From assembly GCA_000697665.1 (NCBI GenBank), contig KL197709.1, positions 1 through 57,026 of the forward strand: a stretch of 57,026 nt of DNA, written 5' to 3'. The position numbers were made by a program, and so were the translations under genes. Position 1 is the stretch's first letter, and each line of letters opens with the position of its first letter. Below, in pieces: positions 7,060 through 57,026 of the stretch. The stretch is from Jaapia argillacea MUCL 33604 (lineage: Eukaryota; Basidiomycota; Agaricomycetes; Jaapiales; Jaapiaceae). The notes under the pieces were generated by a model. The model did no database searches. It worked only from the letters and a program-made list of their open reading frames with translations, and was not told the DNA's origin.

Positions 7060-8651
7060 ATGAAAATGCAAAGAAGGAAAACTTATACCAGTTAAGCCAC
7101 CGCAGTCCGTCGTTAGCACATCGACGATGGCTAATTTGAATCTGAAAATCCCGCAGCATGCGACCCGCTCGCCGCAATCCGCGAACCCGAGATCCGCGAC
7201 TCCATATTTCTCTGTGTCCCAGACGTCCCCTTGACATATAAGGACATGCACGAAGGCAAGGACCCGTGTCTTATATTTTCCCTTGACCAGTTAAAGCCCC
7301 TCCGACTGGTCTCCAAAACGTGGAACAGCTACCTCAGCACCGGCTTCACGTTCGCTAGCATCCACCTGGGACACAATGTGAGAACATACGAGGATGGTCC
7401 ATTCGAGGAGCCGAAATCCTTCGAGAGATGGCAACACTCCGTCCAGCACCTCTCCATCCGCCACTCCCCCGTCGATGCTTCGAGGTGGATCGTGTGGTAC
7501 CAGTGGATCAACCGGATGTTCAACCTGAAGACGCTCAGCATCGTTGGCGATAGTTTCGAAATGTCGAGAGCTCTAAATGACATACAGTTCGGCGCTTTAG
7601 GAAGACTACACTCCGTCGAACTATCGTCCAGGGGGTTGCGCGTAGACTACGGGTCGTTGAAGCAAGCCCCAGCTCTGACCAGGCTGATGATCAGGTTGAA
7701 ACCATCCATCACCATCTTCAGGGAGCTGATATACGACAAAAGCTTCTCCACGTTGCCCTTTGGACGCATCACCAAGTTGACGATCAAGGACCACGACCCG
7801 GAGATCTATTTCTCTGAGCCTGGAGTAGGCTACCAAGATCGCGCAGTTGCATCGCTCTACAGGCAAATTGGCATCGGCGAGGGAGGGCTCGATAAGCTGA
7901 CGTCGCTTCGTTTGAGACAAATTTGGGATTGGACCGCCTTCTCTCGACTCATTGAACGGTTGCCAAACCTTTTGGCGCTGGCTGTTGAGTTAGAAGAGAT
8001 CCATCTTGACTACTCTCCTGTGGTCACCTCCGCGATACCAAACCTGGAGTACTTGGAGGGGTGTCCATATTTTTGCAAAGGTATTATCGGAAATCGGTCG
8101 CTCAAGGCGATCGTCATCCCCGTCGACAACAGCTGGAGAGCAGGTCATATCGAGGATATACTTGAGCTCCTTCCGCTAGGACTTGAGTCGATCTCATACT
8201 CGACCCAGGTGAAGTGGACAATTGGTTTGAGAACGTTTAGGGCTCTATTGGACAGGTGCCGGAGCCTCACAGAAGTCGATATCGATTTCGCAGGTTTGAT
8301 GCCTCCCTCCGACTTGGTGAGAGCCATTCGAACCCTCTAGCACCAAGTCTTACCATTTTTTATAAGGAGGATTTGTTGATCGACATCTTCGACGCCCTAG
8401 TCGAATCGTGCAACAATGTCGTTGCTTTGAGATTTCACCGATTCGCACGAGAGGCAAGCCAGTCGGACCCCGCTATCTCACACGGAGTAGGCGTCCTTAT
8501 GGGTGCGATGCCGTCTCTGCAGTTGATTCAAGCACACGGGTACACTTGGAGACGTGCGGGGAATGACGTTGAAATGACCCGCGATAGATGGGTCATCAGA
8601 TGGTGGCGCCCGGTCAAGAACTACAGACATAGCTGGTATCAGTACGAGTAA
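7060..8651 (+). CDS. F-box/LRR-type protein C (about 491 aa)
   Basis: Homologue of genes A (18754-20353) and B (55265-56810). The N-terminal CDPLAAIREPEIRDSIFL aligns with their CEPLSGIVDPMICDMIFH, followed by the F-box-like LRLVSKTWNSYL and FTFASIHLG, then irregular leucine-rich repeats to the end. F-box proteins tether substrates to SCF ubiquitin ligases through Skp1; here that is inferred from the fold pattern only. The body is 7157..8316, and a 50-base intron (8317-8366) leads to 8367..8651. The conserved start region has no in-frame ATG after the stop at 7132, so I propose a 31-base first exon at 7060..7090 with a 66-base intron; that part is tentative. The first intron of A and B (before their IRVWEPF) is absent here, where coding runs through TSLRLRQIWDWTAFS. 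Confidence 0.75.
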
Positions 8652-16250: not shown

Positions 16251-16690
16251 CGCAACACTTACTCGACGACGGTTACAATACCCCATCGACCGTCGCTGAC
16301 TCTCGCCATTGTTTGTGACGTGGCCATGAACTCTCTTTTTGCACTGCCACCTTTCATCAAGTCATCTCGCCTGTAACCCTCCCACCCTCCTCCGACGTCG
16401 ATGTCTTTACTGTCCTCACCTTCACGCTCGGACAATGCTTCTTTAGATGTGGTCGACTCCATCTCCGAACAACCAAACTCAAGTAGACTCTCTTTCTTCA
16501 CTCCCTGAATTTGCCCTCGTGCTATCATTTACGTACTTTATTTTTGTTTCAGATGCCTTGATCCCGTTTGACAGCAAGGTCTCGGAGGTGGGGGGGGCCA
16601 TCCAGCTTGCTCGTTGATATGGTCGAACGACTCGAATGGTACTCATTAGGCTACTTTCTATCCTCTTAATTCATCAATTCAATCCAGTTC
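16251..16690. other. No supported gene
   Basis: One charged ORF on the minus strand (16259-16528, 89 codons) overlaps equally open frames on the plus strand, with nothing to choose between them. Contains a G8 run near 16588-16600. Confidence 0.35.
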
Positions 16691-16699
16691 ATAATCCTC

Positions 16700-17016
16700 T
16701 GAAAAACGGTGCTTGGCACTATTGATATGGGGTGCATAGGGATAGCACAGAAATGTGGCAAAGGCTAGTCACATTGAGTGTCCTAGCCGCTTGTAAGAAG
16801 GTGCTATCAGTATTTAAAAACAGTGCCTATCCTCAGAAAACGAGTGGTCGTCGCTCTGGATGTTAAAAAGCAATCATGTCTGTTCCAGAGCTCAAAGCAC
16901 TCCTCGGAAAAGTGACTAAGGCACTTTTTATGCGAGTGCTATGAGCACTTGTGGGCACTCTTTTTGAGAGCGGCGGACACTGGTTTCGTGCCAGAGCCTT
17001 CGTCACTCTTTTTGAG
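16700..17016 (+). repeat. Subterminal repeat region of the Plavaka element
   Basis: Dense in GTGC and GCAC tetramers, some as tiny inverted repeats (GTGCTTGGCAC at 16709-16719, GTGCTATGAGCAC at 16936-16948). Two direct copies of CACTCTTTTTGAG at 16956-16968 and 17004-17016. CACTA-type transposons carry clusters of short repeats inside their ends that bind transposase, and this cluster lies on the expected side of the transposase gene. No matching left end was found. Confidence 0.5.
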
Positions 17017-17020
17017 TTAA

Positions 17021-18233
17021 TTTACTTCCCACATGGCCATGGGTCGGTCAACAAACGAGTAGATATGATCGTGTGACTAGTTACAATTACTAAGGTCCAC
17101 GACTAGGGGATCTGATCAGAGACCTTGATCAGGTTCGTCCAGGTGTGCGTAGGTCTCCTGGTCGGATTTCGAACAGAAAGACTTTTCACGCAGTGATTGC
17201 CTTTGCCAATACTCCCGAATCAAACACCAGGGAAGTGTGTCACAATTCCGACTCGATGAGCCTGCATCAGGAAAGCAGGGAAGCTTCTGACGGCCTCTGA
17301 CGAGTCTCCGTTAGAGGCTTCAGAAGCGAAAGAAGCCGAAAAAAGGCCGTCAGAAGCGAAAGTTCGACATCTGTTCAGTTCCTCAATTTTGGGTCTGTCA
17401 GCGGATTTCGATAAATCTGTGTCAGTTCGCCAGATGTCCTCAGTCGCTGTCAGAAAAATACTGAAAGGTGTTGCAAAGCGATACTGATTCGGGTGAAATG
17501 CAATTCTACAAATACACACCCTCTCGTAGCCAAGGAAGCGAACGGTACAAAATGATCTATTGGGATTTGGGAACTTCGTCCCTCACAATCACACTACAAG
17601 ATCGGGGTCCATCAAAGGATTCTGGAGGCACCAACACAAAGCAGATGCTGATCGATGGCGAGAAGTGGATAAAGAGGAGGGAGACAGAGCGAGAGGGACA
17701 TGCTTCGAAGTCGAATTCTAGCCAAGGACCAAAGCGACAAGAAAATCCGACTCATTTGAATGGGGAGGGAGGGGGTGCAAGTGGCAATGCACCATCAACC
17801 TGCCCTGTTGGCCATACCCCAGAGGCCATCCGTGCTCATCTCGACTCCACCTCATACTTTCTTTGACGCCCTTGCAGAGGGGAGAGGAGGGCCTAAACCA
17901 TTAAGAGGGAGTCTTCCGCTGGTTTGCTGTCATTTTGGTAGGTTCTGAGACTGATTGATGTCCCTCAGCTTGAACGAATCCAACAGGCAAATGGGGGGGA
18001 TTAAATCCGGAAGAGGACTTAGTCATCGAGCACAAGGAATTCAGAGTAATGGGAGATATGAGGGATACAAAGCCAGTCAATGAAGGGAGATATTGGAGAT
18101 TCAGTATAGCGTGCAAGTGATGCAGGTGCCGGTGGTTGGGTTATGGTTGAACATGTTGAATAGTGATATTGGAAGGTAGACCCATTGAGCAAGCTTCTGT
18201 AAGTACGTCCAAGTAGCAGCATCATCAACAAGA
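17021..18233. other. No supported gene; contains a 14-bp inverted repeat
   Basis: The plus strand is open at 17468-17866 (132 codons, Gly/Ser/Lys-rich) but has no domain and is not clearly spliced. The stretch also holds the inverted repeat described at 17283-17357. Confidence 0.35.
17283..17357. repeat. Perfect 14-bp inverted repeat with nested hairpin
   Basis: GCTTCTGACGGCCT (17283-17296) is perfectly reverse-complementary to AGGCCGTCAGAAGC (17344-17357), with 47 bases between. The loop itself contains GGCTTC...GAAGCC, a second stem. It could fold into a stable hairpin or be the core of a small palindromic element about 270 bases beyond the Plavaka right end. Confidence 0.7.
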
Positions 18234-18753: not shown

Positions 18754-20353
18754 TTATGTATCTCTAAATATTACACCATTGAACATTTGTTCATCTGCGT
18801 TTCCCCTCTCCCCCTGACACCACGCCACGTCCATCATGCAGGGAGGTAGAAGCAACCTCTCCACCCCTCTTCCAACGGAGCGCCACATGTAGGGATCAAT
18901 GAAAACCAGATCGATTGACGGCCTCAGGGCCATTAAGGCGCAAACCTCTCGATTTAATATCCCAACCTCTATGTTGTTGAAGTCGCCCAACTGAAACAGC
19001 CGAATAGACCTCAAAGCAACACAGTTTTTGATCACGGCTTTGAAGAGAGACTTCACCCAACGCTAGAACAAGGACTTAGTCGTGTTGAGCGAGCTTTAAC
19101 CAAAATTTGAAGGGCGCACCTCCTGAACTTCTGCATTACCGATACAATGTGTGAGGTCCAACTCAACATGTTTCAACAAACGACATCTTGCGACAGCGCA
19201 CCCGAATACACCCTCCAGGTCGCCAATTGCAGCGGTGTAGGCTAACGAAGTGAGACCCAAGGGAAGTACATCCACAAGATCACTCTGGCTCAAGTCATTC
19301 GGAGAGTTGAGAAGCGGCTGAATAGATAGTGACCGTATCGGCCTGTCTCCCAGGAGCTTCTGCACCAGAGGCAGGGGAGCTTCTAGGTAGTTCAGCATCG
19401 GGATGGAGGATGGTCTAATCTTGGCCTGGAGGACGTGTGTGGGTGTTTCGTCGAGATGCACAGTCAGTGACATCAGGACAGGAATGGCCTCCAGCAACAG
19501 TAAGAACGGCTCCCAAACTCTGATCTATTCAAGGATTCGTTCAAGAGATTATCGGTAACGGATGCAACAAATACGAAAAAAAGGATCTCACCTCTCTCAG
19601 AAATAGATGCGTAAGCTGACCCGCGCCGTCGAGGGCTCGCAAGCCTTTCAACAACGAATTTACAACCGTGTCGATTGCCCTTCCGCCCCTATCCAGAGCG
19701 AGGTTGTCGTCTGATATCGAAATCCAGTTTAGGGTTCCGACCGATAGTCCAGCAAGCATCCCGTCATCTACCTCCCTTCGGGATAGGCTATTGCAAAATC
19801 TGAAAGTTACCTGCAGCCTCTTCAGGCTCTTTGCCAATCCCAACCCTCCGTACTTCAGCTGGGTGCCAGATACCACAATGGCCACCGAATGAAGCTTCTT
19901 GAGATCCTCGAAGGGTATATTGTTCAACGCAGCTTCCACTCGCAACTGGGGACCCACCAGCAGAAGGGTCCTCAGCTCCAGCATTTGTCCCACCCACATG
20001 CTTTGGGCGTTCTGAAGCTCTGCATCCCTCCCACGGTAGTCCAAGCTGAGGTGCAACACATGTTGCTGCCAGCCAGGAATTGGCCTGTCAAACGCAATGC
20101 CCTGGTACCGCCGAAGTGGCCTACCAAAGTGGATCGATGCGAAAGTGAATTTTTTGAGATATTCGGCCCACTGTTTGTTGACGAGCCTCAAGATTTTGTA
20201 CGCCACAACTATCCTGTCCCAATACCAAGGGCGTTCGATCAGAAGCTCCGCTCGGCTGAGCCCAAGAAGGGGAACGAAGTGAAAGATCATGTCGCAGATC
20301 ATAGGATCGACGATCCCAGACAACGGTTCGCAGGCTTCGACGGGACATGACAT
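18754..20353 (-). CDS. F-box/LRR-type protein A (491 aa)
   Basis: Three exons, complement(18754..19062, 19120..19524, 19592..20353), with in-frame GT-AG introns of 57 and 67 bases. The F-box-like N-terminus (ACEPLSGIVDPMICDMIFHF, then YKILRLVNKQWAEYLKKF) is followed by leucine-rich segments: LELRTLLLVGPQLRVE, LKKLHSVAIVVSG, LPLGLTSLAYTAA and NCVALRSIRLF. The likely role, by family, is substrate adaptor of an SCF ubiquitin ligase. Its start codon is the upstream of two nearby ATGs; the second (20348) is out of frame because of one extra C relative to gene B. It lies downstream of, and on the same strand as, the SNF2 gene. Residues up to about 69 are virtually identical to B, and the rest is not. 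Confidence 0.85.
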
Positions 20354-20564
20354 GGAAACGTTAGGGGGCTTGACAGCGTCTAAATTTATGGAACAAGATC
20401 ACCTGTGACTCCACTCCTGGTCAAACAGGTTTCACCTAAGTTTCGGCACTTAGCAAACTGATTGGATTTCGCTTCTATCAAAGTTGAAACTCACCCATAG
20501 CTGGGACGCTAGACTTGTTGAACCGTCAGCAACCGACAGTGCTGAAAGGCGACCAAGTGAATCA
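20349..20564 (-). repeat. Duplicated promoter, copy of gene A
   Basis: These 216 bases upstream of gene A match 56811-57026 upstream of gene B without gaps and with six substitutions (about 97% identity). The duplication continues into the first 190 or so coding bases. Whether it extends further upstream cannot be seen, because the window ends inside the B copy. Confidence 0.9.
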
Positions 20565-20584: not shown

Positions 20585-20595
20585 TTATATATATA
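20585..20595 (-). promoter_or_regulatory. TATA-like element upstream of gene A
   Basis: Reads TATATATATAA on the minus strand, about 235 bases before the gene A start, between A and the 3' end of the SNF2 gene. The corresponding position for gene B lies outside the window. Confidence 0.35.
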
Positions 20596-20857
20596 GGAGA
20601 GGCTGCCTCGTGGGTGATGGCAGAAAATTTTCTTTTCGTCACAAAATACAACAGCAGCCCAGACAAGAAGGCAGATTTAAGTAGACTAAGATCTGGTCTG
20701 ATACTAGCATTAGCGAATAGGATTCGAGCGGCCCAGTGGATCCAATCAGTGGACACAAACGATGTATAATGGCATCCACCACCCCCGCCCAACTCAGATA
20801 GTACACTATTGTATGTAGTGACCGTAGCCTACATATTCATCCACATCATTCAGTAGC

Positions 20858-23800
20858 CTACTTGCCCCGCTTGCGAGTAGGCAAACCCTTGACTCCCAAA
20901 GAGGACGGAGTCACGGATGGGGCCATTACCTGTTTATGATATAAGTGGTCTAAGAGATCAAGAACAGTTCATGTAAACTCACATGAATCCCCGAATCGAG
21001 AACCCGGCTCATTGAATTCGGGATATCGGTCCTTCTTCTCGAAAACTCGGTCGAAGATCCCGCTGTCCTCTCGCGTGCCAACTTCAGCCGTTTCGGGACA
21101 GCTGGCTTCGACAATCCGTTGGGAGGCGAAACGCTTCGCTGGCGCTTGCGACGGTCGTTGTCATTCACATCGATGTACCGCTCATCGAAAGAGGGATCCA
21201 TCCAAGAAGCGCCCGAGAACGATGCTCCAGGCGAAGGTTCTGGTGTCCTTCGAGCCGAAGAGGAAGATCCAGCTATAGCAGAAGAAGGTATTGTGCCAAT
21301 CGATGACTTTCCCGGACCCTGAGACATGTCCCGTTTCTCGAACAGCGCAGATTGAACAGCATTTTGGGGCTTCTGGGAATGATCAAGGCGAGGTTCGCCC
21401 CCAGGAGCAGGCATGGAAAGTGTGCTGCAGATGTGAGTTCCAACTGATCGATCCCTCCAGTCTCCTATTCTATCGTAATCCATGTCATGGGGCGAGTTTG
21501 AAGACGTGGGGGGATCCGCTCTTGCAGATGGAGTATCGAAATGATCAGGAATTGGATCAGGCATTCTCCTCGGCGATCTGATACTTGGTTCCTCTTCAAC
21601 CTGGAACATAGGGTCGGATCCCGCGGAATTAATGGTCACGGAGGGTGCAACGAAGGTATTCGATATCTCCCGTGGCAGTGCCATGGATGTCGATGGGTTT
21701 AACGATGCAGGGACATCTTGCAGTTGATCGCGATCGGAAACTGGACCGCCTGAAGCGCAGGATGGGAGGGGTGACGCGCTCCGAGAATCGGGAGACTTCG
21801 TACCCATCGTGTTGCGGACATCTCCCCTCGGTGATTCAACTCTGCTTTCCTTGGTTTGCTCGTCACTCCCATGTGCCATAGCCTTGATGAAGGACTTCGC
21901 ACCCCCTCCCTCTGGCGTCTTCACCACCTTTCCCATTTCTTTATTGCTCCTGGCGCCTCGCTTTGGGTCCCTTGTGATATCCTCTAGCTGTGCGACTACC
22001 TCTCGGCCATGCCCTACCTCCGCTTTTTCCCTCGTCCCCTGGCTTGACCCTCTCATACTCCTTCTAGAAACACCCTTCTTCCCACTCGACGCCTTAGCCT
22101 TCGACTTGGTTTTGTAACGCTTTGTCTCATCCTCGCTCACTCCATCGTCGGCGTCTTCCTCCACCCCCTCAAATCCAAACAGGGTCCCTGCCCTCCTTCG
22201 TCAGCACGATGCAAGACTGCCGCGACGTTGTGACTCACTATTCTTGCCCTCTTTTCCAGTGAATATGTCGTTCATGACGCCTTTCTCCATTGCGACGGAG
22301 TTCAGGAATAGATCAGCGCTTCCGGCGATGATAGTCCTGTAGACGAAACACTTTTTCTTTTGTCCTGAGCACCACATCCTGCCGATCAATTGGTGATCAT
22401 CCGTTGCAGACCAGGTCGTGTCCTCAAGGGTGCAGTCAGCCAATTACCCAAGTGATAACTTCATGGACGTAACGCTCACCACGATGATCATAATATTGGC
22501 CCTGAACAAGTTCAACCCAACTTGGGCGGCTCCGGAAATGATGCAGACCCGAGGCCCGTCGATGGCGTTGAATTTGTCCTGGGCAGCCTTTCGCTTGGCA
22601 ATACTCATAGAACCGTTGATGAAGCAAATGTCCTTCTCCGCGACCCCCAACAAAGGAAGCACCTGCCATGAAATGAGTGAGGTCGCTACCAAAACCAATC
22701 GGACTGAAGGATTTACTAACCACCTTGATCAAACCATTTGCGGAGGGCCAAGAACAATAAATGATGATTTTATCTGGCGGGGCGCCCTCGGGAGAGTGAT
22801 GAAACTGAAATGATTTATCCTCCACGAGTATATTTTTCTCGGCGTCGAATTTCAGAGGCGCTGCGTTGTTGCTGGCCAAGTGATGAGCGCATATCGTAGC
22901 AGTCGCGCTTATCTTCGTCGAGGGTTGCTTCTCGTAATCTTCCAGCGATTTAGGTATGTTGGTGACGCTGTCGTTCAGGGGCCACCAAATAAGGCCACGG
23001 CGAATGGGCAAGTAGAAATTCTGGAAGAGGCGGTTTCAGAGCCAGACCCTGAAGGACAAGGTAAAGAACCTCACTGTTCCGACGTTTTTTCGCGCTATAT
23101 TTGGGGTTTGGATGAGCAGGTCCACCAACGTGTTCAACTTCTCCAGCTCCCAGTCATGTAGGGTCATGCAAAGGATAATGTTGTAGTAGTCGTCGAGTTG
23201 GATGATAGACTCGCCGTTGAGATCCACAGAATCCTTTGTCCTACGCAACACTGCGCCAGCAAAGTGGCGACGCATCGACTTTATAGCCAGAGAAACTTCC
23301 TTCCGTTGGTTCCCCGGTTTGTTCGCTTCCTTGGCGAGGTCAAAGTTGTAGTCCTTGTAGTGGTCGTGCTCCCCACGCCTAACCCTCTTCTCCGCTGCAG
23401 CAGAACGCTCCCTACGATCTCGCGCGCTAGCACTATTGACAGCCTTGACCATGGCAACGTATTTGGCGTCGTGAGAGGGTCCGAAGTCGGGAAGTTGCAA
23501 CAGCCTACCTATGTTCCAGAGGTCCTAACGAGCGCAGAATCAGGATCGAACATCTGGAACTAATGACGTACCAACCAAACTCACCTGGGGCCTCGTCGTT
23601 ATTGGGGTGGCAGTAAGTCCAATCTTGCAGTGGGTCACCTTCCCCAAAGCCATCGCTGCAAAATACTTCTCGTTGTTGTTCCTCGTGACATGGATCTCAT
23701 CGATGGCGACAAAATTGTAGTCCGCACGCCAGATCGTGTCTGCCCTATTCTTCTGAAATACGACGTCTCCATGTTTGGGTTTCGGCACCACGGAGGGGTT

Positions 23801-25754
23801 TCGCTTGTCCAAGGCAAAAAGCCGGACAAAGTCGCTTTGCAGCGCCTGAAATATGTCGATGAGTATGAGGCCTCGCAAAACCCAAAACAATCTCACCGCA
23901 GATGTGATGATCGTAATTCTCCGATGCGGGGCGAACATGAGGAACTCCGTGGAGGCTATCAATGTTTGGTAGAATTGACCTCGAGTTTCATAAGAATCCG
24001 ATATGGCTGCAACATGGAACGCGCCCGGGACGAAGAATCGATTGCACTCGTCCAACCACTGCCTATGGAGGCCCACAGGTACCACGACGAGAGCTCCCTC
24101 ATCCGATAGCGATCCTCGAGTGCCAACGGACCATTTCATGTTATCTTTGCACATCATTAGCCTCGGGACCTTCTTCAAAAAGTCGAAGTTCGGACAAGAG
24201 TACTCACGGAACACGCCGGGGAACTTGCCATGCTTTATGCGATGATCGTGGAAGTAGGCGATGGTGGCAAAAAGAGCCAGAATTTGTATCGTTTTGCCTA
24301 CTCCAACGTCGTCCATCAATAGCATGGGCTTCCCTTCGAAGGCGCGAAAGAGCAAGGTGACGAGGGCGATCAACTGGTGCCACTTCAGCCTCAGCGGCTC
24401 CAGCTCGGTCTCGTCGGCTGACTGGAACCATTCCTTGTGTGTTTTTGGGGTCCTCCCCGAGGGATCTATGAAGGCGTTGAACCCGGGAATGATCTTCTTT
24501 TCGCTCAAACCCAACATAGCCCACAGCTCGTCCGTCGTTTTCCGCCCAAGCTCCACACCCACCCCGTCGCTCCAATCAAAACACGGTTCCTCATTTAACG
24601 AAAAGTCCGGAATCTCCTTGTCGACGTCGTCCAGGTTGGCTATGGTTTCCCACAGCATGCTCGACACCGAGCTTATCTCTTCTTCGTTCGAATTTGATGC
24701 CAGGAGGTCGCGAAGGGCCTTCGGTGTCTCTGATAGCAAAGGTCGCAATCACTATTCATGAATCTGCAGGGGATGGCCTGAAACAACACTCACTCAAGCC
24801 CCTCTTACCATCGTTCTTCTGTACCGGCAGCGCACAACCCATTTCCAGCAACAACTCTCGCAATTTCGACAGCCATACCTCTCCATCCGCGAGATCCGCT
24901 TCGGCGTTGTGCTTTTGGCACAGAAGGAAGAAAGACTCCGTCTCTCGGATGTGTACCTGGATGGACTTGACAGTGACATTTGCACCGGACCCATTCTCAA
25001 GCTCTGGATTTGGGTTTCGTCATCGAACGGCGATACAAGGAAGCCAAAGGCTATGGAGCCACTCACCCTCCCAAAAGGTAACAAGCTTCGCCCTCTTCCT
25101 CAAACGAGAGGCTTTGTCTCGACCGAAAGACTTACGTTGCCTGTTAAGGGACCCCGCCGAGATATTGCTCAAGAAATTCTGAACGTGCAGCAGAGGCTTG
25201 CATGGGCGACCCGGCACGTGTCCGTCTTCACCAAAAAAAGCAAGCGTCAGAGCTTCAAAGTGTTGCGCAACCATCAAGTCGTGGGCCCCAGGAAACTGAG
25301 ATCGTCATCAGATGTTTGCATGGCCAGTATGGCACGAGGAATCGCTTACCTTGCCCTTGGTAATCAGGTCATGTTGGTAAGGGTGGCCCCCTCTGTCGAT
25401 CAAAACTCCATCCCAAACGTCGTTCAGGTTCCAACGGGCCCAGGAAGACCTCACCCAATCCATCCAAGCCGTTCGACCTGCCGCGTCGTTGTCATCGACC
25501 TTGTTGAAGTAAGCGGCCTTCTCTTCGTCGGTCGTCAGCGTGAAATAATGGCTTGAAAACACTTGGATCGCATCTAAGTCGTCGGCGTCGACATCGAATG
25601 AAGGCTGAGTGCTGGGATAACATGGTGGGTGGCATCCGTCTGTCCTTATGATCCATTCATCCCAACCCCAGAGACCCGAGGTTAAATAATCCACCCCCCA
25701 ATGGGATGGCGTCGATAGCTCGAGCAAAGCTTGAGCATAGGTGCAAGGGGTCAT
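20858..25754 (-). CDS. SNF2-type helicase-like ATPase
   Basis: Large multi-exon gene (roughly 1,350-1,450 aa) starting MTPCTYAQAL at 25754. The N-terminal 400 residues are not recognised. The ATPase core has Walker A DDVGVGKT (about 24290-24315), Walker B DEIH (about 23690), GLTATPIT (about 23605), then HFAGAVLRRTKDSVDLNG, PPDKIIIYCSW, VCIISGAAQVGLNLFRA and DHQLIGRMWCSGQKKK (about 22340-22400). These are SNF2-family motifs in order. SNF2 proteins use ATP to translocate on DNA and move nucleosomes. Motif VI has Cys where the second arginine of QxxxRxxRxGQ is expected. A disordered C-terminal tail of about 430 residues is rich in Ser, Pro, Arg and Lys, with possible nuclear signals (RRKRQRS, PKRLK). 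It ends TRKRGK, stop at 20858, in a last exon joined at GIHV. Confidence 0.85.
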
Positions 25755-33436: not shown

Positions 33437-36116
33437 ATGACTAAGGACTACCATCCCGCAAAGTTCAAGCTCAACCCATGTCACTCCTCAAGCTCAATGT
33501 GCCCAGACTGGGGGTTTTCACTTCTTTCAACATGGATGAAGGACCGGAGTATGGCTCGCCTGGTTTCACCCTCGCACTGCCTGATGTCATCGACGATGTG
33601 GGTGATTTGGTAAACGCTCGAGTCCATTCCAACGTCTATCCCATGCTCCCCTTCCTGTTCAAACGTCCGCTCCGACATGGCGTCATCTTCGAGAGGCTCA
33701 ATTACCGATTCGAAACCTTCCCCATCGTCTACGAATGCGGCAGTTGGAGGTTGGAAGCCAGTGTCAGAGAGCAGTGGGACGTTCTAGAGCAGGTCCTAAC
33801 ATCTCTAGCAACCATTTCTCTCTTGCATGGCTCGCTTCGTTGTTTCCTGGTCAAATCTTGCGCAACCCCAGCGCCTCGCTCGAAACGCTACCTCGACGGA
33901 TTCAGCAGCTCCCGGTCGGCAAGAGTTGCTTGCATGAACAGCCTACACGCTTTTGACCTTCTCATCGCGTCCTGTTCTTTTGGGATTGCTACCTGTTCAA
34001 CCACCAATTGGCGTGAGGAGTTGGCAGTTTATCATCCTACGTATTCCGATCTGCTCTGTGTTTCTCCAATCAATTCGTTCAACCCCGGCTCCCGCGTCGG
34101 AGTGATCATTAACGTTTCCTGCTGTGATTGGATGGACTGGGTGCCGAATCTCGTGTCTCGAAACGTACCCGTTTGGCTATGGTGGGGAACCCCCGAATGG
34201 CCCTTGAGTCCTCCCCAACCACGCCAGAAATGGCCTTTGTGGCTTGACAATGCTGCGCCAAACGATGAAGACAGATGTCGATTCCTATTTGGAAATCCTT
34301 TATCCATATATCACCCCTTGTCGGCACCTCCAACCCCATCCCACCCTAGCACTCCATCCCACCCCGGCACCTCATTCCATCTCAGCGACCAACATCGCCC
34401 CATCCCTCACGACACCTCGGCTCCATTCGAGGGCGAGTCTTTTGTCGATTTTTTCGCCAGGAGAAAACGAACGACGGAGCTAGCTGTACAGTCCGGCGGT
34501 CAGAAGAGTCAGTCAATCATATCCAGAAGGGAACATTCTTTGAGGTTACAATGCCCTGGAAATACTGGAGCAAGGGTCTTTCAGTGGTTTTTTGATGACC
34601 AGGGCTCCCCCGTTCGTGTACCTGTCCCCCAGAACTCCGTCGCATCCACATGGGATTCGTACTCAGACTCGCAGCGCAACTACGACCCCCTCAACAACCA
34701 TTGGGATCTCTGCCTGTATCTCGATCCGACAGCTCTGTCACCACTTCATGCCGCCTCCTACGACATCACCCACGAAGAAAGCATTGTTGGCCGAGATGAC
34801 CCAATCCACGAGCCTCCACCTGAGGTCTATCCCATTCAAAGTCCACCCCGTGTCGCGCCTCCATCCCAGGACAGGCTGGACCGAGACGTCCAGCGGATGC
34901 AGGAGCGCCGTTCGGACACCACCGATGGACCCCTCACCCTCGACCTCGTATTCGAACCCCTCGAAACAATCGCCTACCTACGCTATGGCTGGTGTGTTGC
35001 CGAAAAACACATTCAAGACCAACCCCCTTACTCTTTGACGGAACTCCAAACTTTGCTGTCTCACAACTTGAGAAGAATCGCTTTGGAAGGGCTGGTGGAT
35101 CCTACACCTTCAGCTGTCGTCGAGATGTCGCCTTTCTTTCGTCACTTGTCCAAGCTCCCTACCCCACCGTCGCAGTCTGACCTCTCTCAAAATTCGCGTA
35201 GCCAAATTAGCCTTCCTGGCACATTCTCCATCACTCCTGTCCAAGTCAAAGGACTCACTGGGAGTCGGACGAATAGAGCTGTGCTATACATGGTACGCTT
35301 TCACAGGGGCGACATGCCTTGGCGCGTGGCTTTTGACAGCGCTTCTTCGCTTCTCCACTGCATCCGTAGCTCCCACTGCACCTCAAGCGAGCGATTGGTG
35401 ACCTATTGCGTAGAACGTGGAATAGAATTTCGAACAGTCGTCTGCTTCCCTCCCCAGGTCCTTCGGCCCCCTCCATATAGAGGTTTCCGTTACGATGGCC
35501 TGGGCTGGCGTCCCAAGAGCTACAGGCCCACTTTGCAGGACTACTCGGTGTACGAATCCATACGCGATGGCTTCCTTCTCCGGCAAGCACACTCTCGAGC
35601 CGCATTGATGAAGGGTGGAATCATATGGCGCCTGGCCATCCATGCGCTCGGGAAAGACCACGTTCTGCAAGGACCGTCGCACCACATAATGGTAATGGGT
35701 GTCGGCTTATTGGACAGAAGACTTGGCTCCTCCTTTTGGGACGATGATTTGAGCGAGGGGGAAATGATGCTCATCAGCGGTTGCTACTACGTCGAGACGT
35801 GCTGTAAGTCCACTCCTTTTGTCGCTCTTTGGAACGCGATTCCAATTTGGTGTACAAAGCCCGAAATCAGGAAAGTCAACTATCGTGGTGGCCAAAGTAC
35901 AACATCTGGAAGGAGGGGCCCTTTGACGCAGGGTATTGGACACCAGCCGCTGAGAGCTGGTTTCAGCACAGACTTGGTCAAATACGAAACGGCAAAGCTC
36001 CTTTGAGGAATTCTTCCCAATGGACTGCCTCGTTCAAGATTAACCGGGATGGCAGAAACCTCAATAAGAACAACGAGGTTGTCGCAGCGAATTTCTTGTT
36101 GGGAGATCGCTCTTAA
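33437..36116 (+). CDS. Agaricomycete unknown-family protein F (about 850 aa)
   Basis: Member of a multi-copy family of large uncharacterised proteins that I recall from many Agaricomycete genomes; tandem paralogue of G. Landmarks in order: YPMLPFLFKRPLRHGVIFER, NSLHAFDLLIASCSFGIA, PVWLWWGTPEWPLSPPQP, a Pro/Ser/His repeat (PTPSHPSTPSHPGTS), LQCPGNTGARVFQW, YDPLNNHWDLCLYLDP, GLGWRPKSYRPTLQDYSVYE, SRAALMKGGIIWRLA and FWDDDLSEGEM. A phase-1 intron (35804-35859) then leads to LSWWPKYNIWKEGPFDAGYW and the stop at 36116. The main frame opens at 33478. A conserved-looking start (MTKDYHPAKFKLNP at 33437) is one base out of frame with it. No catalytic motif is known to me. Confidence 0.7.
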
Positions 36117-36970
36117 ACGAGGGTCAACGACACTTCACGTTGGCCATTCTGCCGCTGAGTCTTTTTTTCTCACTATCATTATTACTCTTAGTCTTACCAC
36201 GCTTGTTTGTCTGTCTGTCTGTCGCTCTCTTCGCTCCTCGTCCCCCTCCTGCAGTTGCTATTGTTGCAGCTCCTCTGGGAGTTGCGTCAATGATTGGTCT
36301 CCCTAGATTTATTTCACAACCTCCGAAGACGGCCCGCCTCATTCGACCCATAACCTGGCGAATATCGCAATTTAAGATAGAACATCGCTAACTTCGCTAG
36401 AAGCGTCCCAGCTTCCTGCTTACCTCCTAAAATCGCCGTCGATAGGCTCACGGCCTAAGTTTTCTTCTGCAGCACCACGAGGCATCAACCCAACTGTACT
36501 CGCAACCGACGCCTCATTTTTGCGTTTCGGCCCGAAATAGTGATGTTCGGTGTCTCCTGTAATTTCCACCTCGACATTCCTAAGAGCTACCACTGTACCC
36601 TTCTCGCGTGCCATTGTGTATGCCTTGTGGCAAACCTTAAAAGTCCAGATCGTCTATAGCACAATTTCCGCCTGGGTTCCCTTTTTCTGTCCCGACCTTT
36701 CAACAAAGTCGGATGCCAGATCGACGGTGAACGTCATGCCCCTAATGTTCCACTCAATTAAAGTAGGGTCCGTGTGAATTGGCCGAGCTTTTTTTTCGCG
36801 CCGTTTGCTGAGAACGTAGATCCACGTAACGACGCGTCAGGTCCACGGGAACCGTTCATTGAAAGTCGAACTTGAAACACTCGGTGTTGCCATCCACGAC
36901 TTCTGACCTTCACTTCCACCGCCAAAGGATTGCAACTTGTGGCTTCGCTGACGCATTACATAACGAGCCC
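36117..36970. other. Spacer between tandem genes F and G
   Basis: No supported gene. The first 300 bases are pyrimidine-rich on the + strand (for example TGTCTGTCTGTCTGTCGCTC near 36208-36227), a short tetranucleotide repeat. The G promoter must lie in the right part. Confidence 0.4.
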
Positions 36971-39496
36971 ATGCCTCCCATCCCTCGTCGCTTATTTTTG
37001 ACAGGGGATCCTCTCGCTTTCCACCTGACTCCGTATGACTCTCAGTAAGTTAGACGTCCGATCGCTGCCTCGGTTCGCTGAACTCATATGTTCCAGCTAA
37101 CCCTCAGCTTAACCCAACGCCAGGTGCTCAACAGCCCTACCGAAGGTTCGTTACGGTCGTGCTAGTAGGGGAGTTCACAGAGGAGCTCTTCACGTCTCCG
37201 AATTCGGACCTACCCCCGCCACACTCCACTCGCGCCATATGCAATGGCGAAACCAAAGTGGACCAGTTGGTCCAGTCACGATGGGCATCCCATAGCCTCC
37301 CGATGCTACCCTTCCTCTTTCGGCTTCCGTTGAGACATGGGCCCATTTTCTCTAAGCTCAACTTCACGTTCTCCAATCTCCCCATCATATGTAAGGAAGG
37401 ACGGTGGGCGATGGACTCAGCGTTGGGCGACGACTGGTTGATCTTAGAGAGAAGTTTGGCCAATATCGCGGAAACCTTACTAGCTAACGGCGAAGCGCGT
37501 CCCCCCAGCGGTACTCCGATCCGAGTCCCGACCCCTCTATCGATGGGCTACCGCGACTCTCACCAAAATGAAGACGTGGCCAGGAGAGCATGCCATAATT
37601 CACTTCACGCATTCGACCTCCTCATTGCCACATGTTCGATGGCCATCGCCTACCATCCCACTGCATCTCGGCTCAGAGAGCTTGTGGCGGAGAAACCGAT
37701 CTACTCCGACCTGCTGGTGGTCTCGCCACTTAGTTCCTTTGACCTATCCTCTCGTGCCGGTGTCGTAATCCCATCGTCACAATCCGATTGTCTTCATTGG
37801 GTACCATTGCTTGTGTCTTGTCGCATCCCAGTATGGTTTTATTGGGGGGGGTTCGATCGAGCTTTTTCCCCACCCCCACTAAATCTCCAGTGGCTCCAAC
37901 GCCTTGTTCCCACATTCGACGACTATGTTGCCTTCATTAACAAGCGAGAACTTGCCTCCTCCCTTGCGAGTGTCTCCACCACCCCAAGCGGAAGCGGTAG
38001 GCTCCGCCATGGTTTGCATGTAATGTGTTCCAGAGATCGACGCGACACCACTTGGCCGATGGTTGGCCCAGTTGAAGGGGAGTCGGCCAGGAGCTACTTT
38101 GTGAGGAGACAGCTCCGTCCGCTCCATCTACCCACTCACGGCGTTCAACCGGCTCCTCCATGGATCCAGCTTTCTTTGAGCCAAAAACGGGAGACAGCTG
38201 TATACGTTTGGGTGAATCACAATGGCGCACACGTTCGGCGTCGTCTCTCCAGTGCTGAAGCTGAGATGAAGTGGTGTCACTTCAATGATGCTCAGCGTCT
38301 TTACGATGTCTCCCAAAACTCGTGGGACCTTTGCGACGAGAGTTGTCCTGATGTCTGTCAGGACTTATGGTCCGGCCAAAATGGAGTAGAGGCACTTAAG
38401 AAACTACCTGTCGCTCTCTCCCCTTCGACCACGGCGTTCGCCAAGGACCTTTGCCTGGGATGTACATCTACCGAGGGCGCCCTACCCCGCCTCGAGCATC
38501 TTATGCTCGCAGAAGTGGACCCCATCCGACTCGCTTTCGACACCCTCGAAACGGCTCCAACTCAGCTACCCAATGTCAGGATCGTTCACATCCAGGATCT
38601 GATACTCGTTCGTGGGACGAAGGCACATGAAACGAAGAAAGACCTCATATCTCTATTTATCTTCTCCCCTGCCTCATGTACACTGCCATGGAAGGTAGCA
38701 TTAGACAGCGCCACTTCCACTCTCCAATGCATCCGTGCTGAGGTTTCCGGAGCTACCCATCCATTGGCTGAGTACTGCGTCAGCAAGGGCATAGCCTTTC
38801 GCACGGTGATCCACCTACCCAACGATTTCTTTCCGCCACCCCCATATAGCGGTTTCCGTTTCGTCGGCCTTGGATACCGTCCCCTCCGCTACCTTCCCAC
38901 CTCGGGCGACTATCGCTGTTATGAGCATATCCGTCATCGATTTCTTTGCCGTAATGACCATGCCAGAGCTGCCTTGCTCAGAGGAGGTATAGTTTGGCGA
39001 CTCGCCTTGGAAGTTATAGGGCGCGAGGAGGTTCTCCGAGGTCCTTCCAATCTCGTTACGGCCATGGGAAGCTGTCATCGCCGCATAGGTGACGGTACAT
39101 CCTATTGGGACGACAACTTGAGCGAAGGGGAGGACCGCATAGTTTGCGGGGTCTACGGCGGGGGAGACTGTGGTGGGTGTCTTCAAACCTTTCTGCCTTT
39201 TCTACTTCTAATGTTGTCCCTAAACGTTAGATTCAAGCGACGGGCCGTCCTGGTGGCCCAGCAGACAGTGCTGGGAAAGTGGACCGTTTCATGTGGGCTA
39301 TTGGTCTCCTCCCGCAGAAGTGTGGTATCAATACTACCGGCGCAAAATCGTGGACGGGGACTACAAGTTGAGGACGGACGCTGAATGGAGGGCATCGTTC
39401 CGTGTTGGTGGGTATATTGTTGCTCTCGACGACAGCACCGAGGATGCCTGTCGGGAATTGTTACAGAGATTGACCGGCTCCCCGGCCTCGTCCTAA
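36971..39496 (+). CDS. Agaricomycete unknown-family protein G (about 800 aa)
   Basis: Tandem paralogue of F with the same landmarks: LPMLPFLFRLPLRHGPIFSK, NSLHAFDLLIATCSMAIA, PVWFYWGGFDRAFSPPPL, RLYDVSQNSWDLCDESCP, GLGYRPLRYLPTSGDYRCYE, ARAALLRGGIVWRLALEVIG and YWDDNLSEGED. A phase-1 intron at 39173-39230, at the same site as in F, joins to PSWWPSRQCWESGPFHVGYW, stop 39494-39496. The upstream exon 36971-37044 (MPPIPRRLFLTGDPLAFHLT) is followed by a good GTAAGT donor, but the next acceptor (37096) leaves the frame one base off, as in F. It lacks F's Pro/Ser/His insert. Function unknown; the two probably arose by local duplication and have diverged far. Confidence 0.7.
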
Positions 39497-51260: not shown

Positions 51261-52925
51261 GCTCGATGGACGGTGAGTGGGTTCAGGTCCCAGAGGAGTG
51301 TTAGTGCCGCGATAATCTATGATCATTGGCAAGTATCAGACAGCGTCAAACGAACCAGAAATGGGACATCACGCACGTGGGTCAAGAATGAACCCTATGA
51401 GATAGACACCACATGGGGCTTCGTTGATCATCTGGTTAACCCGGGAGTTGACGGCCTTGCGAATTTCTTTCTTCACCGTAATTGACATGAGATTTGTATT
51501 GAGGCCTACTTCGAAGCAAAGACATCATTGAAACCCTACATACCAGGTAAGTCGACTTCTCGCAGACGATGAATGGGCTACTCACTTTCACGCGCACAAT
51601 TCTCTCTGAACAGAGCTCCTTGATCGCCGGATTGCAGTTGAGCAATGACTGCCCAGAGTGGTACATCGTACCGAATCGAGTCTTTCGACTTCAACCCAGG
51701 CTTGATGCCCAATACTTTTTGACGCCGAGTAAGATGTTCAGTCGCAAATGTGGTTTTTGAAGAAGGCAATCGTTCGTCGAAGATTCTTGATAGCATGGAG
51801 CCACATTAGATTTGGAGGTGTGGACGCACTGAGCTGAAGTATGATATCTTGCAACTATCTTTGCAGAGCAGGCTGAGGCAATGACAACTTGAAGGATCGG
51901 GGAGGATAATGATCCACGGAAAATCAGTGCCAAGAGTTCTCGAGCGACGGTGGTGTTCCCAGTGTTGTTGCTCGAAATACCGCGAAACAGATGAGGACCA
52001 ATTTGTTTGACAACCCTTGCGAAGTGGTCAGTCTTTCTGGCACGAGTTCTCTTGGGGAGGCAAACTTTCCTGTTGCAGGTCCTGCAACAGAACTTAACTA
52101 CCTTCGCGACAACGTCAAACCTATTAATCATCGACAAGAGAAGGTCTGTGCCACAACGCCGACGTACGAGCGTCGCGGTGAAGTAGCAACCAGATAAGGA
52201 GAGGGCACAAGACCCGATGATGGAGCAAACGAACAAGCATGCGCAAGGATGAAGCAACGGTGAGGAATTGGCTCGGGGACAATGTTGCGTAATATTTCCC
52301 ACGCTGAACCCTCCCCTGCCAAACTCTTATACAGGTGAAGGGATGATGAGGCAAACGCAGCTGATGAAATGTATCACTGCACACTCTGAGCTGACCAGCA
52401 AGAGGATCTAACCATAGCACTGTTTGGCGAGCTCTCAGTTCACCATGTCGACGTCCGACTTCTGTTCGCTCCAGCACAACGCCGATCAACTTCAAGGAGT
52501 CACCGCCAATCCGTTGACGTTAAGCTCATCGGCTGCCATGAGATTCATGGCATCCCACAAACCATGTTCAGCTTCCAACACCAGCCGGACTGTCAACAGA
52601 CGACAATTTCCACGCGAGAGTGAACGTACAGTGCTGGATTTACGAACTGATCCTTTCACTCGCGGCCAGTTGTCCACTGCCACTTCGTGTGTCCACAAAC
52701 ATCAGGATTACATAGCAAAACCGTGACCGCAGCTACAGTTCGAACTCTGGCTGATTACTGTTCTAACAACAACGTCCGAAGGGCCCTTATGCACTCGTAC
52801 TCTATACGCACTAAGGACCATTATTCCTCGGACTCGACACCATCAGCCCAACTCTCTTGTGCAAAATATGCATCTACCGGTCATCTTTCAAGCCAGTCAG
52901 CAAAAGTGGCAAGAGTGACAAACCG
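51261..52925. other. No intact gene; truncated repeat of the 18.4-kb gene
   Basis: The longest minus-strand ORF (51691-52302, 203 codons) fuses the hydrophobic GCYFTATLVRRRCGTDLLLS segment to unrelated downstream sequence. The rest has no recognised coding feature. Confidence 0.4.
52126..52197 (-). pseudogene. Truncated copy of the small hydrophobic gene
   Basis: About 72 bases closely matching 18460-18530 (shared AACGCCGACGTACGAGCGTC and GGTGAAGTAGCAACC), encoding the same GCYFTATLVRRR..GTDLLLS segment. Similarity stops abruptly at about 52126, where the 18.4-kb gene continues IIIWLEVV, so this copy lacks the rest of the gene. Confidence 0.6.
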
Positions 52926-52929
52926 ACGC

Positions 52930-54523
52930 TTACCAATCACCAAAAGCGTCACTTTCCCTGTAGCTACGTTCCTCGGGGTCCTCATATGCAGGGAGCATTT
53001 CATAATGAAGATATCCCCAGCCACCCGGTTGGGGGAAGTAGCTTGAATAGATGTGTTCATAAAGTGCATATTGTAGGTCTTGGTCACGAGGGACGGGGCA
53101 ACTTGAAGTGGTCCAGAATCGCTGAATTTCTGGGCGGACTGTAGGTCGGATGCATGGGAAGATGGTGCACAGATACCTTGCTAATTTGAGGCGGTCGTCA
53201 TAGTACATGTGACCGATGCCGTCAAGGTCTATAATCACCAACCGGGAAGTTGATTGCCATTCTGGATCCAGATCCAGATCCAAGCCACCTTCTGGAGGAT
53301 TCACTTGTAGTCGTAACTCCCCAAGGCTTGCGCATGCGGCAAATCCAGCGATGGCGTGGAGGTTGATGGTAAGGGACGGGTGGGAAATGATCAGGCTGGT
53401 GAGGAATGGCCACGACCGGACCATGGTGGATACATCCATCGGGGTGCAAGGTGAGGGCCGAAAACTTCCCCGATGTCCGATGACCCTCAACTCCCTGATG
53501 CATTTGAGAGTGAGCAGGGGTATCAGCAGCTCACTCCCAGCTGAAGTGTGACCAAATAATATCCAGAGCCGCGTCAGGTTGGACAACCCAGCTAAACTGG
53601 CGAGTTGCGTCGGGATGCTTGCTCCATTGGGTTTGGAACAAACCGTGACCGTTAAGCTCGTTAACCCCTCTGTAGCTGAGATGGTTCTGAGGAACCTGGG
53701 GGCATCAATGGAAAGACATTCGAGACGGACAGAAAGGATGGGCGGAAAACCAACTGGCACACCCGCCCCACCCTGGAACGGAGGAACGGAGGACAACCAC
53801 ACCGCCCGCAAACGGGGCAGACGCGCGAGCGATCTGAAGATCCGTCCACAGTTGCTCGATGAGTACTTGACCACCTCGAGAAATGGGCACTTGTCTGGAA
53901 GTAACTCGAAGAGTTCCGTGAAAGCTCCTGGTATCGATGTCGGCGCAGAGTCAATCTCTAGCCGGAGAAGTCCCTCCGTCAGCAACTTGGATAGGCCATC
54001 TACGGCAAGTTGCGTATCAGCCTGTTCAACCCTTTCCGGGTCTCCCCCAAAGGCACCCCACCCTGGGCACCAATCCCAATGAAGGCATGTAAGGTTGGGT
54101 AGTCGAAGCCAACCGCAGTCGCGAAGCAGGGATACTTGATATTCGTTGGCACTGACGGTGATCCTTTTCACCCGAGCGGCGTAAAAATCGAAACGTTTTT
54201 GATCAGGGCTTCCTTCCGTTAGCTCCTTCCACGTCTGTAACAGTGTGTCTATGTGAGATCAATTAGGGATGAAAGAGTTGAAGACGACTTGCCCAATTCC
54301 CTTCTGAAGACCGCTCCAATTCTGGGATCAGCTTCAACAGCGGTCCCAAGGAATCGAGCTTCTCCCATATCAAGTCAATTGCAACAAAGTACAACAATGT
54401 GGCAGAGCGGGCAGCTGAGGCCAAGTCGGATTTAGCGCCACGGTGTATCGACTGGGGATTGTACAAAAAACTGAGGATGCGGCGCTGCAACTCCTCGACG
54501 TGAAAAACCGAATGGCAACTCAT
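52930..54523 (-). CDS. F-box/LRR-type protein E (about 517 aa)
   Basis: Paralogue of gene D. Start at 54523 (MSCHSVFHVEELQRRILSFL), F-box-like, then SDLASAARSATLLYFVAIDL and WEKLDSLGPLLKLIPELE, followed by leucine-rich repeats. Model complement(52930..54248, 54289..54523): a 40-base intron with an unusual GTCGTC donor restores the frame and removes an in-frame stop. Conserved blocks with D include GASIPTQLASLAGLSNLTRL and SAGSELLIPLLTLKCIREL. It ends YRESDAFGDW and lacks D's Gly/Glu repeat and last intron. Divergence from D is large, so the duplication is old. Likely SCF adaptor by family. Confidence 0.75.
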
Positions 54524-55264
54524 GTTTCCTTCAAGCTTTCTCTGGGCCCGGGTTCGAGAGCTCGGAGAAGTTCTTTTTCTTCTGGTATACCGCATGAGAG
54601 CAGGGCTTCCTTTTTCAGTGGTATGAGGGACTCACAAAATGATGGAAGCAGTGCTCAGGGCAGAAAAATAGGCAAGGATTGAAGGGGAAGATCCAAGACT
54701 GGCGTTTCACAAATATCGAAGTAGAAGCGAGCGTTAAGTAGAGAATTCGCAGGCCACAGGGTCACCTTCACGGGAGCCCGTTGTGGACTGTGGACTCGAT
54801 GTGGAGAGACTCGGGACACACACAATGGGTCGCAGAATTCAAACAATGTAAGTAGAGAATTCGCAGGCCGCTGAACCACGGACCACCGTCTGTGAACTGC
54901 GAACTCGACGTGGACAGACTCATGTTGATGAACGTGTATGTTACGCAATAGATAGAAAAAGCCTCTCAATATCGAAGGCGGCGGGCGCGCAGAAGCTGAG
55001 TAGCGCTGATTTGAAACGACAGCGGTGACTGGCCGAGATTCTGCGTCCCCGACTCCTTGAGTGATAGGACATCCTCCAATCCCCTTGTATTTAACTAGCC
55101 GCTGCCCGTGAATCCGTCCCGGAGAGCTATGTATCTAAGCTGAAGACAATGGCTTGAAAGAATACAAAAGATGGAAAAACTTGAGCGTTGCTACGAACAG
55201 GCTGATTCGACAGTGCACTACAAATGGGGCCTGTTTAAATAACCATAACCTCCGCTCAGAACCC
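54524..55264. other. Region upstream of gene E with a tandem duplication
   Basis: No gene. Contains the 114-base tandem duplication at 54736-54925. Because B ends at 55265 and E starts at 54523 on the same strand, this is both the B 3' flank and the E promoter. Confidence 0.5.
54736..54925. repeat. Tandem duplication, period 114 bases
   Basis: AAGTAGAGAATTCGCAGGCC starts at 54736 and again at 54850. Each copy is followed at similar distance by a related block (GGACTCGATGTGGAGAGACT and GAACTCGACGTGGACAGACT). It lies 210-400 bases upstream of the gene E start codon. Confidence 0.8.
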
Positions 55265-56810
55265 CTAGACTCTAGTCCAATGTTCCCATGACACGTCCAT
55301 CATACAGGGAGGTAGGAGCAACCTCTCGACCCTTCCCTGCACGGAACGCCACATGTAGGGATCAATGAATACCAGATTGATAGATGGCTTCAGAGTCATC
55401 AAGGCGCGAACCTCTCGATTTAATACACCGACCTCCACAATGTTGGCTTCGCTCATCCGAAACAGCCTAATGGACTTCAAATCTACACGATATTTGGTCA
55501 CGCCTTTGAAAAGCGACTGCACCCAAAGCTAAAATGAGGACTTGTTCAGGGATAGCGAACTTCAGATAAGATTCGAATGACGCACCTCCTGAGCTTGTTC
55601 GTTTCCGATGCAATGTACTAAGTCCAAATGAACCTGCTTCAAAAAACGGCATTTCCTGAGAGCGGATTCGAACGTGGCCTCCAGGTCGCCACTTGCGGCG
55701 GTGTAAGCTAGCGAGGTGAGACCCGAGGGAAGTATATCCACCAAATCGCTCTGCCTCGGCGCATTCAGAGAGTAGGAACGCGGGAGAATCTCCAGTGACC
55801 GTATAGGCCTGTCTCCCAAGAGTTTCTTCACCAGAGGGAACGGAGCTGTTAGGGAGTTCAGCATTGGCATAGCTGATGCTCTCATATCGGCCAGGGGGCC
55901 CATTCTAGACGTTGTGTCGAGATATACAGTCAAGGACGCCAGGGCAGGAAGGGCCTCCATCAACAGTAAAAATGGCTCCCAAACTCTGATCTATTCAAGG
56001 ACGACTCGTCCAAGTAATTATCAGCCGCCAATGCAATAGATGAAAGAAATATCGCACCTCTCTCAGAAGTAGACCTGTAAGCCGACTTGCGCCATTGAGG
56101 GTATGCACGCCTTTCAGCACTGAGTTTACACCCCTATCGACCATACGTCCGCGACCATCCACAGCGAAGTTGTAGTCCGTTATCGAAAGCGAGTTCAGAT
56201 TTCCAACTGGCAGCCCAGCAATCATCCCGTCTACTTGTCCTCGCGATATGCTCTCGCAAAAGTCGAAAGTCACCTTAAGCTTCTTCAGGCCCAATGCCAA
56301 TCCCAAAGGCCCGCAGTCCAGCTTGGTGCCCAATATGACGATGATCACCGAGTGAAGCTTCTCGAGATCCCCAAAAGGTATTTTGCTCAACGCAACTTCC
56401 ACTCGCAACCTAGGACCCATTAACTTAAGGGTCCTCAGCTCCAGCATTTCCCCCACGCACATGCCTTGTGCGTTCTGAAGGTCTCTATCCCTCCCATAGT
56501 AATCCAGTGTGAGGTGTAAGACATGCCGCTGCCAACTGGAGCGTGGCCAATCGAACACAATGCCCTGGTACCGCCGAAGTGGCCTGCCAAAGTAGATCGA
56601 TGCGAAAATGAACTTCTTGAGATATTCGGCCCACTGTTTGTTGACGAGCCTCAAGATTTTGTACGCCACAACTATCCTGTCCCAATACCAAGGGCGTTCG
56701 ATCAGAAGCTCCGCTCGGCTGAGCCCAAGAAGGGGAACGAAGTGAAAGATCATGTCGCAGATCATAGGATCGACGATCCCGGACAACGGTTCGCAGGCTT
56801 GACGGGACAT
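55265..56810 (-). CDS. F-box/LRR-type protein B (473 aa)
   Basis: Three exons, complement(55265..55528, 55586..55990, 56058..56810), with introns at the same places as in A and a second exon of exactly the same length (405 bases). Starts MSRQACEPLSGIVDPM; residues to about 69 are identical to A (CDMIFHFVPLLGLSRAELLI and on), then diverge: LDYYGRDRDLQNAQGMCVGE versus LDYRGRDAELQNAQSMWVGQ, and IIVILGTKLDCGPLGLALGL versus AIVVSGTQLKYGGLGLAKSL. The C-terminus is shorter (ends SWEHWTRV) than in A. Likely SCF-type adaptor. Start codon and reading frame differ from A by a single-base indel next to the start. Confidence 0.85.
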
Positions 56811-57026
56811 GACGTGGAAACGTTAGGGGGCTTGACAGCGTCTAAATTTATGGAACAAAATCACCTGTGACTCCACTCCTGGTCAAACAGGTTTCACCTA
56901 AGTTTCGGCACTTAGCAAACTGATTGGATTTCGCTTCTATCAAAGTTAAAACTCACCCATAGCTGGGACGCAAGACTTGTTGAACCGTCAGCAGCCGACA
57001 GTGCTGAAAAGCGACCAAGTGAATCA
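56811..57026 (-). repeat. Duplicated promoter, copy of gene B
   Basis: Matches 20349-20564 over the full 216 bases visible, six substitutions, no gaps. The window ends inside it, so its outer limit is unknown. Confidence 0.9.

Follow-up and report, generated by a model that had tools for sequence, protein, structure and literature searches.

A near-identical 5′ block in two otherwise diverged paralogues at a Jaapia argillacea contig start, probably copied in a recent ectopic exchange

Two paralogous genes of Jaapia argillacea, here called A and B, are nearly identical at their 5′ ends and then diverge abruptly. This step is real and is more than chance would produce. The probable explanation is an ordinary mechanism, recent ectopic gene conversion, or a one-sided exchange, between two old paralogues. 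Both genes lie in the window, by which we mean the whole stretch of DNA analysed, namely bases 1 to 57,026 of contig C1 (3.43 Mb) in a genome of 43.7 Mb and 95 contigs; the window itself contains no N.

Gene models and the step in identity

Genes A (18754-20498) and B (55265-56960) are both on the minus strand and have four exons at matching places, with reading frames open throughout. The features referred to below are as follows.

18754..19062, minus: gene A exon 4, up to the stop; protein of 486 aa
19120..19524, minus: gene A exon 3, within the predicted LRR-type body
19592..20334, minus: gene A exon 2, within which identity with B breaks
20335..20494, minus: putative gene A intron 1, phase 1, acceptor GAAG/CC, holding the ATG/ACG difference and a 1-base indel (from sequence)
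20495..20498, minus: putative gene A exon 1 (ATGG), with a GTGAGT donor next to it (from sequence)
20154..20564, minus: gene A near-identical block (alignment against B), from visible 5′ UTR through exon 1 and intron 1 to base 181 of exon 2
20091..20155, minus: break interval in A (2 log-likelihood units, shoulder included; change-point fit)
55265..55528, minus: gene B exon 4, up to the stop; protein of 470 aa
55586..55990, minus: gene B exon 3
56058..56797, minus: gene B exon 2
56798..56956, minus: putative gene B intron 1, 1 base shorter than that of A
56957..56960, minus: putative gene B exon 1 (ATGG)
56617..57026, minus: gene B near-identical block (alignment against A), its upstream end hidden by a run of N
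7060..8573, plus: third, distant family member within the window (protein search; about 33% identity to A)

From features shared within the family we infer that A and B begin with a four-base exon and a phase-1 intron, and that their proteins start with MACEPLSG. The layout of ATGG and a GT donor upstream is common to A, B and a paralogue on contig C59, and an AG acceptor stands immediately 5′ of the C-[ED]-P codons in all six genes scanned (A, B, the C59 paralogue, a second C59 copy, a member on contig C63 and the member near 7 kb of the window). In gene A the acceptor reads GAAG/CCTGCGAACC, the phase-1 intron then splitting the alanine of MACEPLSG, and a CTAAC preceding it is presumably the branch-site motif. 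Possible phase-1 donors were picked out by eye for the second C59 copy and the C63 member, and one was tried for the 7-kb member, which has a candidate 31-base exon 1 at 7060-7090, an exon 2 from 7157 and no in-frame ATG directly 5′ of exon 2. Inspection of the DNA upstream of a further member, on contig C12, gave no clear model of exon 1 and intron 1. The start codons adopted in the earlier note on this DNA (A 20353, B 56810) were rejected, as the family-shared phase-1 intron would explain both the ATG/ACG difference and the indel. On the corrected model, the stretch which that note labelled a promoter would be mostly 5′ UTR, exon 1 and intron 1 (66 visible bases, 4 bases and, in A, 160 bases), and the indel it counted as coding would be the fourth base before exon 2, in intron 1. 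What we take to be the TATA element of gene A lies at about 20585-20596, just upstream of the compared stretch; its counterpart in gene B would be inside the run of N.

Comparison of A 20564-20154 with B revealed differences at 7 of 410 sites, in addition to one 1-base indel. Three of these differences fall in the UTR, three, together with the indel, in intron 1, and one at a silent site. Past the block comes a shoulder (A 20153-20095) with 5 of 59 sites differing, followed by 123/500 in the rest of exon 2, 97/405 in exon 3 and 48/243 in the compared part of exon 4; for introns 2 and 3 the figures are 17/64 and 19/57 sites, respectively. The profile thus describes a step and not a smooth gradient, with 20-33% of sites differing beyond the shoulder. 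A single change point yielded a likelihood ratio of 144 against a maximum of 18.7 in 2000 column permutations, the latter scanned on a coarser grid of every fifth column, and the break interval falls within exon 2, close to where the N-terminal segment ends. The earlier description of the step proved accurate in its counts. The 216 bases upstream of its ATG in B carry six substitutions (A 20548, 20532, 20510, 20486, 20397 and 20352), and what it took as the first ~190 coding bases carry one substitution (A 20318) and one single-base indel by alignment. The residues said to be the same to about 69 first differ at residue 65 of the corrected protein (T/I), which is residue 70 of A in the first frame; identity, reported to fall near 20150 in A and 56620 in B, is first interrupted beyond the block at A 20153 (B 56616); and the bodies, said to share about two-thirds of their residues, are identical at 267 of 406 from residue 65 on (66%).

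The assembly gap and the neighbouring sequence

Directly after the window lies a run of 6169 N (C1:57027-63195), perhaps a gap in the assembly, perhaps sequence that was withheld. The block of gene B abuts it exactly, at 57026/57027, so that the upstream edge of the near-identical tract is hidden and a conversion tract is indistinguishable from a one-sided exchange; a single edge of the tract is visible. Since misjoins occur at such places, the position also casts doubt on the B block itself: the last ~410 bases before the gap could be a second allele or copy of the 5′ end of A, misjoined to B. Such an artefact would fit the ending of the block exactly at the N run and a difference from A of 1.7%, which could be allelic, and contig ends commonly lie in near-repeats. 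However, the B block stands seven sites and an indel apart from A and hence is not A's own sequence, and the joined gene B is in frame, with splice signals present and a reading frame of 470 aa. Moreover, sequence comparison of C1:63196-82000, past the gap, with the DNA upstream of gene A gave no match, and other recent tracts are found inside the N-free window. On this evidence we consider a misjoin unlikely.

One of these recent tracts, at 52419-54833, is 2.4 kb long, 95% identical to C63:16932-19350 and has sharp edges; it carries an ORF (52930-54171, minus strand) with no Pfam match at E 0.01, and weaker copies (about 66-67%) are found at C1:29910-30535, C63:42810-43900 and C59:71269-71710. 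Window 32984-34147 matches C1:71773-72920 over about 1.1 kb at 89-92% and takes in the beginning of an ORF (33478-36006) without a Pfam match at E 0.01; past this piece the match from C1:72 kb jumps to window 36639-37996, at 74-77%. Two further pieces, 22357-23381 and 23784-24190, are 88-89% identical to C59:50948-52341, the first matching C59:50948-51935 at 89%, and lie beside or within an ORF with an SNF2 domain (23540-24748, minus strand). The tracts shared with C63, C59 and C1:72 kb indicate that recent exchange or duplication recurs in the region. The window also contains an ORF with a Plavaka transposase domain (12006-13079, E 1.2e-84) and, at 15138-17033, a dispersed repeat, with copies of about 75-76% identity on C9 and C15 and shorter pieces at many other places. 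Together with the many F-box-like loci of the genome, the Plavaka ORF would suit a mushroom-type fungus. Although the window begins at C1:1, no array of four TTAGGG repeats was found in the assembly with up to one mismatch allowed, and its subtelomeric position is suggested only by the contig start.

The patchwork neighbourhood, together with a head shared by bodies of which one third of the residues differ, would suit the proposal that duplication or translocation shuffled a 5′ module, promoter plus head, to another body. Yet the two bodies share introns as well as homology along all of their common length, and the break falls within exon 2. A genome search at the DNA level gave the two copies of the block and only one further relative, 74% identical over 188 bases on C59, with no third body bearing the head. 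Shuffling of this kind is therefore very improbable.

Silent sites, constraint and the gene family

Of the silent sites in codons 1-61, 1 of 39.0 distinguishes A from B, and of the replacement sites 0 of 144.0; for codons 84-490 the counts are 102.7 of 281.8 silent sites and 174.3 of 879.2 replacement sites (dN 0.23). Silent divergence in the LRR part is accordingly not as low as in the head (dS 0.50 against 0.026). At the body rate, 14.2 silent differences would be expected in the block; the binomial probability of one or fewer is 5e-7 if the body silent rate is taken as known, and 0.0013 at the lowest rate of any 30-codon stretch of the body. The same contrast made with the first choice of start codons gave a Fisher P of 2e-5. 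Noncoding sequence behaves likewise, UTR and intron 1 differing at 6/225 sites versus 36/121 in introns 2 and 3 (Fisher P 6e-13). When the same 61 codons of A were compared with the C59 paralogue, the one outgroup used, 26 of 38.3 silent sites differed; the block codons are thus not specially constrained or slow. At the sole silent difference in the block, A shares T with the C59 paralogue whereas B has C, which only suggests that gene B is the changed copy at that site.

An account without exchange, in which purifying selection holds the N-terminus and regulatory DNA while selection on the LRR body is relaxed or diversifying, draws on the greater N-terminal conservation between the A protein and the C59 paralogue (47/63 residues identical versus 84/185 beyond; dN 0.187 versus 0.591), but is exceedingly unlikely, since constraint alone fails where silent sites, intron 1 and UTR step as well and the block codons have diverged silently from C59, pairs with more distant members show a small or modest N-terminal excess (for example 23/63 versus 61/185 and 29/63 versus 60/173), and the body dN/dS of A versus B is about 0.46. 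Diversifying selection on the body was rejected: none of 14 windows of up to 30 codons, spanning codons 66 to 474 in the first numbering, exceeded 1, all lying at 0.23-0.96. N-terminal constraint may operate in the clade of A and C59, but not as the cause of the step. Of the three causes put forward in the earlier note, then, conversion limited to the 5′ end, or another recent exchange, finds support, while the pair of selective pressures is insufficient and the shuffling of 5′ ends does not match the data.

Protein searches placed three family members in the window on C1, two on C59 and one on C63, both small contigs, and one near the start of C12 (C12:2180), with weaker partial matches on C1, C22 and C82; gene A gave no tblastn match to the latter loci at E 0.01. 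Among the 15 pairs formed by six members, the C12 member being left out as a piece without the N-terminus, only A and B share a near-identical head, which gives no support to the idea that the family serves as a variable substrate-recognition set.

The A and B proteins appear to combine a segment of about 65 residues at the N-terminus with an LRR-type solenoid, as judged from the fold of a relative. The model of this relative (window 7144-8340) has a mean pLDDT of 62.9, with 10-residue means of 41-85 from residue 61 on, and its Foldseek and VIA matches, among those listed, are mostly LRR proteins by title. A model of exon 2 of gene A has the same order of strands and helices (mean pLDDT 54.6). 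A PDB sequence search with the family profile returned only weak matches, mostly to LRR proteins (best E 0.061). The assignment of the body to an LRR-type solenoid is thus supported by way of the fold predicted for a paralogue. Other LRR proteins, such as RanGAP, NLRP9 and LRRC8C, score within 1 Z unit of the F-box/LRR receptors.

The F-box identity (PF00646, PF12937) attributed earlier to the N-terminal segment was not supported, an F-box there not being recognised by profile. Pfam searches up to E 10 matched neither of the two full-length A and B proteins nor any of seven family members, and among six N-termini matched one (PF00646, E 0.17). Against a profile built from 20 F-box-like loci found in this genome, A and B were equalled or exceeded by 70 and 57 of 1000 shuffles, respectively, and one relative by none of 1000. 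With a profile of seven F-box loci, an eighth having been dropped for a stop in the match, 4 and 3 of 200 shuffles equalled A and B, and none of 200 equalled two relatives. Alignment to the F-box by hhalign gave probabilities of 13% (E 0.0023) and 27% (E 0.0007) with only 12 and 15 columns aligned, and a PDB search with the N-terminal profile produced two matches (E 0.53 and 1), not F-box-like. The segment was modelled only at 10-residue pLDDT means of 27-49. It may still be a diverged F-box, but as they stand A and B differ from the F-box/LRR receptors FBXL2, TIR1 and COI1 in having no F-box recognised by profile.

Recent ectopic copying and known systems

The following course of events would account for the step. 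The duplication giving rise to A and B would be old, with a silent divergence of about 0.5, and both copies would have retained the exon layout. At a much later time, 410 bp or more, running from the visible 5′ UTR through exon 1 and intron 1 to the first ~61 codons, would have been copied between them by ectopic (interlocus) gene conversion, the molecular route that we infer; alternatively, break-induced replication or unequal exchange may have acted one-sidedly, with the other edge in the assembly gap. Seven substitutions and one indel would have accumulated in the block since then, and no selective reason need be invoked for the copying. Two marks of conversion are found: divergence at neutral sites between the paralogues drops abruptly and locally, and local constraint, judged from the C59 paralogue as one outgroup, does not explain the low divergence. 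The tract is flanked by the edge at A 20155-20091 on its 3′ side and by the N run, 57027 to 63195, on the 5′ side of gene B. The shoulder, with its 5/59 sites, counts against a clean conversion edge.

The location of the break at the end of the N-terminal segment raises another prospect, that heads are exchanged among paralogues at contig ends while the LRR bodies are kept apart, in which case one regulated head would drive a varied receptor set. This reading is still allowed because the promoter of B and the other end of the tract are unseen and because recent tracts occur in neighbouring sequences, but we give it a slim chance. Under recent copying between A and B, the case serves mainly as a caution for estimates of gene age and selection. 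Near-identity confined to one part of two paralogues need not mean conserved function; here the silent and intron sites point to recent copying. Furthermore, the window holds a gene family, apparently of LRR type and without a Pfam match, and the contig end in which it lies is a patchwork with recurrent exchange between copies.

Among the titles and abstract openings of the matches listed, nothing was found on the A/B pair or on conversion in a fungal family of this kind. Interlocus conversion as treated in the accessible part of one review (PMC3924818) resembles the present case in producing a short near-identical tract of a few hundred bp between diverged homologues, and the tract seen here, of at least 410 bp, fits the yeast averages of about 200-500 bp given there. 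The A/B case departs from it in that one tract edge is hidden. The same part of that source puts conversion mainly above 80% identity; had the block formerly matched the body in divergence, presumably with about 75-80% identity, it would have been no more alike than the level for which conversion is described as frequent. The TLO family of Candida albicans, going by the portion of PMC9713401 available, can also be likened to A and B, having a conserved N-terminal domain, a varied rest and a location at chromosome ends. In contrast to the present family, where one pair only shares a head, the TLO head (MED2 domain) is there present in all 189 sequences, and for A and B proximity to a telomere is only a possibility. 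Repeated ectopic conversion has been reported from Aspergillus, according to the excerpt of PMC12844118. A further parallel is MALT434 of Saccharomyces eubayanus, described in the available part of PMC6448821 as a partial ectopic conversion between transporter paralogues of about 80% protein identity. The resemblance to A and B lies in partial conversion yielding a chimera, which in MALT434 involves a stretch of 230 bp whose ends do not coincide with obvious domain boundaries; MALT434 differs in having emerged during experimental evolution, with a new function demonstrated, whereas the A/B tract occupies the 5′ end and is known from sequence alone. A and B are most likely a further instance of this known process, partial ectopic conversion.
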